Source of the DNA: Verrucomicrobiaceae bacterium
Lineage (GTDB): Bacteria; Verrucomicrobiota; Verrucomicrobiia; Verrucomicrobiales; Verrucomicrobiaceae
Direction: 5' to 3'
DNA: 64,000 nt
NCBI GenBank assembly: GCA_947458455.1
Contig: CANGYJ010000003.1
Span: forward strand, 372,001 to 436,000
This document shows positions 31,613-38,075 of this stretch, in pieces; position 1 is the stretch's first letter; the number at the start of each line of letters is the position of its first letter. The translations under genes and the position numbers were made by a program. The notes under the pieces are model-generated. The model saw nothing but the letters and a program-made list of their open reading frames with translations, was not told the DNA's origin and did not search any database.

Positions 31613-33004
31613 ATGGCCCGCAAAGCATCTTCCAAGCCCGAGTCCAGCAACTCCACCGCCACCATCGGCTTCGAGGCGAAGCTCTGGCTCACCGCCGACA
31701 AGCTGCGGAACAACATGGACGCGGCGGAATACAAGCACGTCGTCCTCGGCCTCATCTTCCTCAAATACATCTCCGACACCTTCGAGGAACACCGCGCCAA
31801 GCTCCTCGCCGGCCAGGGCGACTACGCCGGGGCCAATGCCGAGGACCCGGACGAATACAAAGCCGAAAACGTCTTCTGGGTGCCCGCCGATGCCCGCTGG
31901 TCTCACCTCCAGGCCAACGCCAAGCAGCCCACCATCGGTAAGATCGTGGATGACGCCATGGTTGCCATCGAGCGCGACAACCCACGCCTCAAAGGCGTCC
32001 TCCCCAAGGACTACGCCCGCCCCGGCCTCGACAAGCAGCGCCTCGGCGAACTCATCGACGTCATCGCCACCATCGAGCTCACCGCCGCCAGCGAGGGCGA
32101 GAAGACCCACCGCTCCGTCGATCTGCTCGGCCGCGTGTATGAGTATTTCCTCACCCGCTTCGCCAGTGCCGAGGGCAAGAACGGCGGCCAGTTCTACACC
32201 CCGTCCTGCGTCGTGCGCTGCCTCGTCGAGATGCTCGCCCCCTACAAAGGCCGCATCTACGACCCCGCCTGAGGCTCCGGCGGCATGTTCGTGCAGTCGG
32301 AAAAATTCGTCGAATCCCACGGCGGCAAGCTCGGCGACATCAGCATCTACGGGCAGGACAAATGGGCGCGGCGGCAGCGCCCATTTGGTCTCGCAACGCG
32401 AGCCCGCAGGGTGAGGCTGCGGCGGCAGCAGCCGAAACAAAGCAACGCCACCACCCGCCGCCTCGCCGTGATGAACCTCGCCCTGCGCGGCATCGAGGCC
32501 GACTTCGGCCCCGAGCACGCCGACACCTTCCGCCGCGACCTCCATCCCGACCTCCGCGCCGACTACGTCCTCGCCAACCCGCCCTTCAACGACTCCGACT
32601 GGTTCCGCAAGGACGACGACGTGCGCTGGCAGTTCGGCGTCCCGCCCAAGGGCAACGCCAACTTCGCCTGGGTGCAGCACTTTATCCACCACCTCGCGCC
32701 GCACGGCATGGCCGGCTTCGTCCTCGCCAATGGCAGCATGTCTTCGAACCAGTCCGGCGAGGGCGACATCCGCCGCGCCCTCATCGAGGCCGACCTCGTG
32801 GACTGCATTGTCGCCCTCCCCGGCCAGCTCTTCTACAGCACGCAGATTCCCGTCTGCCTCTGGTTCCTCGCGAAAAACAAAGCCGCCGACGCCAAACGCG
32901 GCTTCCGCGACCGCCGCAAACAGACCCTCTTCATCGACGCCCGCAAACTCGGCACCCTCATCGACCGCGTCAACCGTGCCCCATCGAATCCGTCTCTCAA
33001 CTGA
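31613..33004 (+). pseudogene. hsdM: Type I restriction-modification methyltransferase subunit, interrupted and truncated
   Basis: The product would be the M subunit of a type I system (N6-adenine methylation). The N-terminal helical domain ([34 protein letters not shown]) is intact. AdoMet motif I, normally DPACGSGGM, reads DPA-stop-GSGGM: a TGA at 32270-32272 replaces the Cys codon (TGC to TGA is one base). The frame then continues unchanged through NPPFNDSDW, the catalytic motif near 32577. An in-frame insert of about 81 bases (32357-32439) with two hairpins splits IYGQ from [17 protein letters not shown]. The C-terminus is lost: after [10 protein letters not shown] the sequence becomes unrelated and stops at 33004. 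Three independent lesions make a working enzyme unlikely. No hsdS is present. Confidence 0.9.
32357..32439. repeat. Palindromic insert in hsdM with two hairpins sharing one loop
   Basis: Hairpin 1 is AAATGGGCGC / GCGCCCATTT (32360-32369 with 32377-32386) with loop GGCGGCA. Hairpin 2 is GGCTGC / GCAGCC (32415-32420 with 32428-32433) with the same loop GGCGGCA. The insert replaces about one codon of the family sequence by about 28 and keeps the frame. Confidence 0.8.
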
Positions 33005-33007
33005 CTT

Positions 33008-35833: not shown

Positions 35834-35855
35834 GACGTGGCTTTGGGGTATTTAG

Positions 35856-38075
35856 CCGGGCGACCGTCGCGCGGGCGTGGTCTGGCACACGCAGGGCAGC
35901 GGCAAGAGTTTCTCCATGCTCTTCTTCGCCGCGCGCGTGGTGCGGCATCCGGCGATGCAGAACCCGACGCTGGTGGTGCTGACCGACCGCAATGATCTCG
36001 ACGACCAGCTTTTCGGCCAGTTCCAACGCTGCGCGGACATCCTCGGCCAAACTCCGGTGCAGGCCAGCGGGCGCGAGCATTTGCGCGTGCTGCTGAATCG
36101 GGCGAGCGGCGGTGTGGTGTTCACGACCATTCATAAATTCATGCCGGAAAAGGGCGAACTGATGCCCGAGCTGAGCGCGCGGCAGAACATTGTCGTGATC
36201 GCGGATGAAGCGCTTCGCAGCCAGTATGGATTCGGCGGCAAGGTGAATGAGAAGACCGGTGAGATGTCCTACGGCTTCGCCAGCAACCTGCGCGATGCCT
36301 TGCCGAATGCGTCGTTCATCGGCTTCACCGGCACGCCCATCGAGAAGACGGACGCGAACACGCGGGCGGTCTTCGGCGATTACATCAGCATCTACGACAT
36401 CCAGCGCGCCGTCGCCGACAAGGCCACGGTGCCGATCTATTACGAGAGCCGCATTTCCAAGCTGAGCCTGAACGCCGCCGAACTGCCGAAGCTCGACGCG
36501 GAGTTTGAGGAGATCACCGAAGGCGAGGAGCTGACGAAGAAGGAAAAGCTCAAGACGAAGTGGGCCGCGCTGGAGGCGCTGGTGGGCGATCCGAAACGCA
36601 TCGCGCTCGTGGCCGCCGATCTGGTGGCGCATTTCGAGAAGCGCGTGGAGGCGATGGACGGCAAGGCGATGATCGTCTGCATGAGCCGCCGCATCTGCGT
36701 GGATCTTTACGACGCGCTGATCAAACTGCGGCCCGAGTGGGAGGCGGAGACGCTAAAGGTCGTGATGACCGGCAGCGCCGAAGACGGCCCCGAGTGGCAG
36801 AAGCACATCCGCAGCAAAGATGCCCGGCGCAAACTGGCGAACCGCTTCAAGGACGCCAAGGATCCCTTCAAGATCGTGATCGTGCGCGACATGTGGCTGA
36901 CCGGCTTCGACGCGCCCTGCCTGCACACGATGTATGCCGACAAGCCGATGCAGGGCCACGGCCTCATGCAGGCCATCGCCCGCGTGAACCGCGTCTTCCG
37001 CGACAAGCCCGGCGGGCTGGTGGTGGATTACCTCGGCCTTGCCGATCAGCTCAAGAAGGCGCTCGTCACCTACACCGAGAGCGGAGGGCAGGGGAACCCG
37101 ACCTTCGACACCGCCCAAGCCATCGCCGTGATGCTGGAGAAACACGGCATCGCCTGCGACATGATGCACGGGTTCAACTGGGACAAGTGGACCACCGGCA
37201 AACCCACTGAACGCCTTGCGCTCATCCCCGCCGGACAGGAGCACATTCTCGAACAGGAAGACGGCAAGAAGCGGTGGGTCCAGGTGGTGACGGAACTCTC
37301 CCGCGCCTTTGCCCTCTGCGCCGCCAGCGATGAAGCCACGGAGATTCGCGACGACGTGAGTTTTTTCCAAGCCCTGCAAGCCGCGCTGAACAAGCAGAGC
37401 AGCCAGAATCGAAAGACGCCCGAGCAAATCGACGCCGCCATCCGCCAGCTCGTGAGCAAGGCCATCACCACCGAAGGCCAGGTGATCGACGTCTTCACCG
37501 CCGCTGGATTGCCCAAGCCGGACATCAGCATCCTGAGCGACCAATTCCTCGCCGAAGTGCGCGGCCTCAAGCACAAGAACGTCGCCGCCGAGCTGTTGGA
37601 GAAGCTGCTCAAGGACGAACTCAAAGTCCACTCCAAGCGCAACCTCGTGCAGAGCCAAGTCTTCAGCGAGAAGCTCAAGAAGACCCTCAACGCCTATCAC
37701 AACCGGGCCATCTCGACGATGCAGGTCATCGAAGAGCTGATCAAACTCGCCAAGGACCTCGACGCCGCGACGAAGCGCGGTGAGAACCTCGGCCTGACCG
37801 ACGACGAAATCGCCTTCTACGATGCCCTCGCCTCGAACGACAGCGCCGTGCAAGCCATGGGTGACGACAAACTCAAGCTCATCGCAGCGGAGTTGATCAC
37901 TCAGGTGAAGACGAGCGTCACCATCGACTGGACCCTCCGCGAAGGAGCGAGAGCGAAGATCAAAGTGATGGTGAAGCGCATCCTGAACAAACACGGCTAC
38001 CCGCCGGACTTGCAGGAAGAGGCCGTGAAGACCGTGTTGGCCCAGGCGGAGTTGCTGTATGCGGAGTGGGTGTGA
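35856..38075 (+). pseudogene. hsdR: Type I restriction enzyme R subunit, N-terminally truncated
   Basis: Homology begins abruptly at [17 protein letters not shown] (about 35859), directly at helicase motif I, and runs to a normal C-terminus. A GTG at 35877 could start about 732 residues. The roughly 290-residue N-terminal PD-(D/E)xK nuclease domain of HsdR is absent, so the remnant cannot cut DNA as HsdR does. Later motifs include [31 protein letters not shown] and [14 protein letters not shown]. The DEAH box reads DEALRSQYG (ctt at 36213-36215 instead of a His codon), a change at a helicase catalytic motif. The junction lies 25 bases after the stop of the metallophosphoesterase-NTPase gene. 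The long frame itself is free of stops, so translation of a translocase-like fragment remains possible. Confidence 0.85.

Follow-up and report, generated by a model that had tools for sequence, protein, structure and literature searches.

The DS-8 system is a single protein in which a phosphoesterase is joined to a NACHT domain; it protects E. coli, and mutating either site abolishes protection (PMC13092281). In the part of that paper available to us, DS-8 and DS-9 are two members of their class shown to act, both without a known substrate, and SMPDL3A is the structural match that the discoverers named for DS-8. Calcineurin-type effectors in NTPase-linked conflict systems, including those with STAND NTPases, had been predicted earlier (PMC7159879 and PMC8195603, each available in part). 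Foreign defence genes have also been described inside type I restriction (hsd) loci: DarTG2 sits between hsdS and hsdR in enteropathogenic E. coli (EPEC), where the hsdS-hsdR gap was called a potential recombination hotspot (PMC12255303), and PrrC lies in EcoprrI (PMC12707154). Here we analyzed a window of 64,000 nt from a Verrucomicrobiaceae bacterium (contig CANGYJ010000003.1, positions 372,001-436,000, assembly GCA_947458455.1; coordinates below are window positions), in which one intact gene, hereafter the cargo gene, lies between the remnants of an hsd locus. We consider it quite probable that the cargo protein is a single-protein STAND-type immune receptor that arrived horizontally and replaced the hsd middle, in an event of a kind that recurs in this bacterial family. 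As far as our literature searches go, two things are new: a coherent family that combines phosphoesterase, nSTAND5 and TPR parts, and the repeated replacement of one hsd type's core by varied defence systems, with stubs left behind. The literature searched contained no description of defence genes lodged between hsd stubs, which is no proof of absence.

Domain plan of the cargo protein and the closest known systems

The cargo gene (33008..35833, + strand) starts with ATG and encodes 941 aa with no internal stop, as an earlier note made from the letters of the window had read it. The profile search proposed in that note placed both Pfam domains above their cut-offs: Metallophos (PF00149) at residues 6-241 (E 1.1e-13, 52.5 bits versus 21.5) and nSTAND_NTPase5 (PF25199) at residues 368-511 (E 1.1e-36, 126.3 bits versus 34). 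On the + strand, the phosphoesterase domain occupies 33020..33916 (residues ~5-303, by PF00149 and VIA-align), the NTPase domain 34109..34540 (Walker A K420, Walker B D470-E471), and an all-helical, TPR-like part, the presumed sensor, 34772..35821 (residues ~589-938). The residues that we take to be the calcineurin-type metal site (D12, H14, D51, N90, H91, H209/H210, H236, H238 and H240) are identical in 5/5 alignment rows, as are those that we take to be Walker A (G416, E418, G419, K420, T422) and Walker B (D470-E471); one of these rows, from Zoogloea, is ended by a contig end after residue 779. The complete metal site and the STAND/AAA-like P-loop NTPase of the earlier note were thus borne out. 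Of its TPR-like end, the helical C-terminal part appears in the model, while TPR models match there weakly and below cut-off.

The AlphaFold2 model used here (14 alignment rows, mean pLDDT 85.8, pTM 0.59; 64.6 for an earlier 5-row model) predicts that the protein begins with a phosphoesterase-like part, continues with an NTPase-like one and ends in a long helical stretch. With model residues 3-333, the best VIA-align match was 9a6c_B (Z 32.6, 312 aligned residues, root-mean-square deviation (rmsd) 2.9), followed near Z 21 by a group with SMPDL3A (8w6r_A, 21.5), Rv0805 (2hy1, 21.4), Lmo2642 and purple acid phosphatases. Since these alignments are largely confined to residues 1-443, they say nothing about the C-terminal half. 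As a side observation, 9a6c_B is chain B of an integrative YydD-YydB model, its Z is far above all other entries, and it may be a further relative of these phosphoesterases. Foldseek with the whole model gave the STAND-TPR protein 6mfv, SAMD9, Apaf-1 (3shf), Avs3 (8dgc) and Avs4 (8dgf) at E < 1e-3; since TM-scores are low and rmsd large, we count these matches as partial. Comparison with a viral fold library at E <= 0.001 gave 9 matches; those with names were of phosphoesterase or ATPase type, with no defence protein among them.

By its plan the cargo protein is nearest to DS-8: both are single proteins with an N-terminal metallophosphoesterase, here with a complete metal site and with SMPDL3A among the nearest solved folds, and a central P-loop STAND-type NTPase. 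However, the NTPase of the cargo protein is nSTAND5 rather than NACHT, and its end is TPR-like. The DS-8 family model NF053861 gave 105.3 bits against a cut-off of 790, within residues 9-294 only, which places the protein outside DS-8; six other cargo-like or related-phosphoesterase proteins scored 96.7-138.8 in the same region. One protein of the same phylum (genome G237) is DS-8 by this NCBIfam cut-off (823.8 versus 790). BLASTP of the cargo protein against P0005, a DS-8 by cut-off, found nothing significant outside the phosphoesterase, the NTPase included. At E <= 1, PADLOC returned only PDLC00736 and PDC-S60 for the cargo protein; a DS-8 by NF053861 also matches PDC-S60. The earlier note could not name the exact family, and this stands. 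Its view that the plan fits conflict systems, where phosphoesterase effectors with NTPases are predicted, agrees with PMC7159879 and PMC8195603 and with DS-8 in PMC13092281, in the parts of these papers available.

The cargo protein also resembles Avs (AVAST) proteins in its order of effector, STAND NTPase and helical repeats (Foldseek E 5.1e-4 for Avs3 and 9.3e-4 for Avs4; TPR models under cut-off). In contrast to Avs, its effector is a phosphoesterase, and with TM-scores of 0.15-0.20 of the query and large rmsd the likeness is at domain level only; no PADLOC Avs model matched at E <= 1. A closer counterpart of the C-terminal half is a SIR2-nSTAND5 protein of the same genus (loci L019 and L020; L-numbers denote loci and G-numbers genomes of our comparison set). 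Its nSTAND5 and helical half are homologous to those of the cargo protein (residues 323-904, ~30% identity, E 1e-52), and at L019 it too lies between hsd stubs, but there it carries a SIR2_2 effector where the cargo protein has the phosphoesterase. A Hymenobacter protein in turn has a phosphoesterase with 59% identity to this one, but the rest of that protein gives TPRs and a weak, under-cut-off AAA_16 match and does not match the NTPase of the cargo protein. A STAND half joined to SIR2 and a phosphoesterase joined to another NTPase suggest that effector and sensor halves move separately, as expected for STAND immune receptors. The phosphoesterase-nSTAND5 receptor would thus join the class of DS-8 and DS-9, and its homologues swap sensor and effector parts.

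An anti-phage function of the cargo protein is likely from this analysis. The TPR-like part would sense a phage-derived trigger, upon which the nSTAND5 NTPase may change state or oligomerise with nucleotide, as judged from STAND and Avs proteins. The NTPase would then switch on the N-terminal phosphoesterase, and the hydrolysis of a nucleotide or nucleic-acid phosphodiester would stop phage growth or the cell; here the analogy with DS-8 covers the need for both sites only.

Defence cargo between hsdM and hsdR stubs

At 31613-38075, all on the + strand, lie an hsdM stub, the cargo gene as the only gene between the stubs, and an hsdR stub. The hsdM 5′ stub (31613..32969) is a pseudogene of ~432/547 codons with HsdM_N and N6_Mtase Pfam matches and homology to hsdM of L040, L041 and L045. 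Compared with the 547-aa HsdM of L040, the reference locus for break coordinates, its homology stops near 32970, leaving ~115 residues missing. Methylase motif I has a TGA (32270..32272, +) where L040 encodes Cys (DPA*GSGG versus DPACGSGG), which splits the stub into two open pieces (31613-32272 and 32285-33004). Judged from these sequences, hsdM is dead through truncation and the TGA. The hsdR stub (35854..38075, +, ~codons 312-1050; PF18766, PF22679 and PF11867; TIGR00348 from position 271) retains the helicase/translocase and C-terminal domain and has lost ~311 N-terminal residues relative to L040 HsdR (1050 aa). L040 HsdR matches solved EcoR124I HsdR, the lost part aligning from EcoR124I residue 60 on; we assume that this part holds the nuclease domain. 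The S protein of L040, which matches solved HsdS, found nothing between the window stubs at E <= 1e-6 and gave two partial matches elsewhere in the genome. None of hsdM, hsdS and hsdR is therefore whole here, unlike in the loci with DarTG2 and PrrC, which likewise carry a foreign defence gene but whose hsd genes are described as working in the available parts of PMC12255303 and PMC12707154.

Comparison with fuller hsd loci, which the earlier note had suggested for fixing the insertion ends, placed the left junction at 32961..33007 (+; break near 32970, ~38 nt before the cargo gene) and the right junction at 35834..35856 (+; hsdR homology restarts at 35854-35856, ~20 nt past the cargo stop). 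The losses that the note had described, of the hsdM C-terminus, of hsdS and of the hsdR N-terminal part, and its statement that the breaks fall within about 40 bases of the gene ends, all agree with this alignment. The cargo would have replaced the hsdM 3′ part, the whole of hsdS and the hsdR 5′ part. Since the cargo ATG lies 3 nt past the last stop codon of the hsdM stub, the gene probably uses the hsdM promoter.

To see whether this layout recurs, the hsdR stub was compared with a family set of 68 genomes, 21 of which match it at E <= 1e-60; 22 loci in 19 genomes were examined, the window included. Six hsdR places at 40-52% identity were left out as other type I kinds (G400:C68, G328:C248, G398:C806, G315:C16, G297:C140 and G320:C49). 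HsdS was checked against solved HsdS for L040 and L045 and assigned by likeness to L040 or by position for the others. Cargo replaced the hsd middle in 9/22 loci, with 8 distinct cargos. Seven of these loci (window, L019, L047, L049, L050, L051 and L068) show both stubs on one contig, whereas in L038 and L069 the hsdR stub alone is present and the contig ends past the cargo. The hsdR 5′ part is kept in 9 loci (L039, L040, L041, L042, L045, L046, whose 3′ end is cut by the contig, L048, L065 and L066); in 3 loci (L043, L044, L067) the contig ends before the hsdR state can be told, and L052, whose contig ends within hsdR, is a bare hsdM-hsdR deletion.

Besides the phosphoesterase-nSTAND5 gene of the window, the cargos are a 1222-aa phosphoesterase with an HSP90-like ATPase domain (L051), a HATPase with a weak Shedu-like end next to the SIR2-nSTAND5 protein (L019), PsyrA and PsyrT of PsyrTA (L047), HamA and HamB of Hachiman (L049), Drt3a and Drt3b of DRT3 (L068), a type II restriction endonuclease (L038) and an open reading frame (ORF) at 9531-11705 of L069 that has no assignment. 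L050 is a second L049-like Hachiman locus in the same genome (G321), with the helicase region in pieces, by duplication or as an assembly variant, and the two were counted as one event. Outside L050, 11/12 cargo ORFs match PADLOC at E <= 1e-9; as a comparison, 2/10 flanking genes, hand-picked at 5 loci, match through generic ABC-ATPase and helicase domains. L045 (G329) and L019 (G315) have both chromosomal flanks in common; at this site G329 has hsdM, hsdS (which matches solved HsdS) and hsdR with insertions, whereas G315 has stubs and cargo. These comparisons show, at the level of sequence, that the hsd middle was repeatedly replaced in the family by different defence genes with hsdM 5′ and hsdR 3′ stubs left, in line with the replacement of one defence module by another that the earlier note had proposed for the window. 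They offer actual examples of restriction loci that died and whose sites other immune systems then occupied.

Several observations weigh against this interpretation: the two L019 ORFs match PADLOC in part only, through their HATPase and SIR2 domains; the L069 ORF matches nothing in Pfam, PADLOC or the PDB sequences; what is left of hsdM in L068 is short, with 34 residues matched; and most genomes are multi-contig assemblies, with the cargo loci L038 and L069 touching a contig end. The G+C content of the cargo gene (0.53-0.57) is below that of the hsd stubs (~0.60-0.68), but genes further upstream (0.55-0.64) overlap its range; the lower GC of the inserted stretch that the earlier note had reported thus holds against the stubs only. 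The draft genome of the window, in 28 contigs, also allows for an assembly chimaera, which we find hardly credible with the locus interior to a 467-kb contig and the pattern recurring in other genomes. The window genome has a single match to the cargo protein and a single one to the window hsdR. By eye, the L069 ORF has an LLLTSR stretch resembling STAND proteins.

Breakpoints and possible exchange between stubs

We then compared the breaks on L040 coordinates. The hsdM break lies at 5331 in the window and 5327 in L051, 4 nt apart, and the hsdR break lies at the same base, 9482, in the window and L038, while the cargos of the three loci are all different. The hsdM stubs of the window and L019 carry related inserts at the same position, L019 and L051 have another insert in common, and L047 has one similar to the latter at that position. 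This web of shared breaks and inserts suggests exchange between stubs. In a uniform-model simulation (without L068, L069 and the L049 copy L050; thresholds chosen after seeing the data), the window shared both breaks in 0.0002 of simulated sets; left pairs arose within 4 nt in 0.08 and within 8 nt in 0.007, and right pairs within 1 nt in 0.02 and within 14 nt in 0.012.

Other results speak against such exchange. Breaks other than the shared ones fall at different places from locus to locus, which suggests that most are separate events. In the whole-hsdR-stub tree the window is not paired with L038, which joins L065, a locus with full-length hsdR (support 0.985). Local identity to the window at the right junction is 100% in L066 (full hsdR, 65 nt) and in L067 (hsdR runs through, 59 nt) and 98.5% in L038. 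Two insertions of short elements at the same position are also conceivable. Segment trees group the window with L038 at nt 0-450 (0.75) and 450-1200 (0.86), and L038 with L065 from 1200 to the end (0.999). With such mixed trees and local identity that does not discriminate, mosaic ancestry of the hsdR stubs is likely, and descent of the right junction of the window and L038 from one event is only moderately supported.

The evidence for exchange of cargo between stubs is moderate. We tentatively suggest that the dead type I loci of the family could serve as docking sites, in which hsdM and hsdR stubs, spread between species, act as homology arms that swap whole defence systems under the old hsdM promoter, so that the locus keeps its defence role and changes its weapon. 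If true, this would provide an integrase-free route for defence turnover, and loci of this layout, with genes of no known function flanked by hsdM and hsdR stubs, could be a source of new systems. A serious competitor, to which we would give somewhat less than an even chance, is embedding of the usual kind with later decay: the cargo would first have entered a working locus in the gap between hsdS and hsdR, and a single subsequent deletion would have taken out hsdS and the adjacent ends, the stubs having no role in exchange. Loci with hsdM, hsdS and full hsdR do carry extra genes between S and R, namely RhuM (L040, L041), an OLD/AAA_15-like ATPase (L066) and a metallo-beta-lactamase-fold gene (L045), as DarTG2 lies between hsdS and hsdR in EPEC (PMC12255303, available in part), and the differing breakpoints of most loci fit such a course as well. 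It accounts less readily for window breaks that both lie <= ~40 nt from the cargo with no hsdS remnant found, and for a break in common with each of two genomes bearing other cargos (the 0.0002 of the uniform model, with its post hoc thresholds).

The hsdR stub, a translocase without nuclease, might also have stayed functional and form a composite system with the new protein. Its frame is open from a GTG at 35877 for 732 codons, the ratio of non-synonymous to synonymous substitution rates (dN/dS) between the window and L038 stubs is 0.071, and the window-only codon changes (15 synonymous/2 non-synonymous) resemble those of intact lineages (18/2, 26/6, 24/6 and 65/4). No relaxed selection was seen on the window stub, which a recent truncation explains equally well. 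In L019, L047 and L051, stops, frameshifts or insertions interrupt the stub, and the surroundings of the homologues L002, L008 and L009 showed no hsdR; we therefore hold a composite system to be very improbable.

Homologues, probable mobility and neighbouring features

Over most of its length the cargo protein is 62% identical to a protein of a Zoogloea metagenome-assembled genome (L001, at a contig end), 57% to one of the same genus (G199), 43% and 40% to proteins on the IMG/VR viral contigs L056 and L057, 41% to a Pseudomonas protein and 35% to one of the same order (G254), so that the Zoogloea match outranks the same-genus copy. Within the phylum, 4/288 genomes have a match, a count that includes the window genome; in G237, one of the four, the matching protein is the DS-8, and the match covers the phosphoesterase only. 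nSTAND5 was found in 6/59 genomes searched of the bacterial family. Matches on plasmids (24 records) are confined to residues 2-321, and phage records gave no match. Downstream of the near-full-length homologue, L057 carries genes for a DNA methylase, an Rz-like spanin, tail and tape-measure proteins; on L056 the homologue lies 5.6 kb from a gene for the small subunit of a terminase, and in L001 an integrase lies 3.4 kb away. The patchy cross-phylum matches, the viral-contig copies and the integrase in Zoogloea support mobility, and the cargo gene probably came by horizontal transfer.

The earlier note had asked whether homologues sit in varied defence islands. The homologues at L002, L008 and L009 lie, by eye, among seemingly ordinary chromosomal genes with no evident defence neighbours, which counts against an immune receptor. 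Such neighbourhoods would suit a regulatory or housekeeping phosphoesterase-NTPase with no tie to phage defence, placed in an hsd remnant by chance. Some STAND proteins regulate metabolism, for example MalT. The patchy spread across phyla, the viral-contig copies, the shuffling with SIR2 and the defence cargo in sister loci argue against this, and we regard it as unlikely. The note had also named what would contradict replacement by a defence gene; in the material examined, the gene was not seen in an intact hsdMSR operon of any relative, and by eye the homologues have no common housekeeping neighbourhood.

The window hsd locus is flanked by lgt (29970-31016, named by eye) and, on the other side, by an ABC gene at 38865. 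An hsd locus lies at the lgt 3′ end in three species (the window; L019, lgt 14483-15568; L045, ~12287-13243), with the opposite orientation in the window. These two flanking genes sit on separate contigs in both G396 and G325, the nearest of the relatives examined, which suggests that the window arrangement is rearranged; no empty site was found. Between lgt and hsdM lies a direct repeat of 110 nt, 90% identical (31040-31149 and 31172-31281).

Like the TGA in motif I, an in-frame insert in the hsdM stub (32359..32441, +) goes beyond the earlier note. It is a short hairpin element of ~83 nt (DNA folding z -3.67), single-copy in its own genome, with a related insert at the same hsdM position in the L019 stub and none in L040, L041, L045 or L066. 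Further short G+C-rich elements were seen in hsdM stubs and near hsdR, some in frame (window 38575-38636, with no strong hairpin fold, z -0.76; L019 6131-6194; L051 4576-4640; L047, oriented, 4942-5004), and they look like one or more short-element families of this lineage.

Large proteins of 1394, 1375 and 1742 aa at L021 (9178-13362), L023 (6936-11063) and L022 (6220-11448) have nSTAND5 just above cut-off (37.7-41.8 bits); those of L021 and L023 have no PADLOC match at E <= 1e-4, and all three are possible further STAND systems. On plasmid NZ_CP085535.1 (L071, 7010-13128), a phosphoesterase adjoins a gene annotated as GTPase-associated system GASH protein, with genes annotated AbiEii/AbiGii and Hok/Gef in the surroundings.

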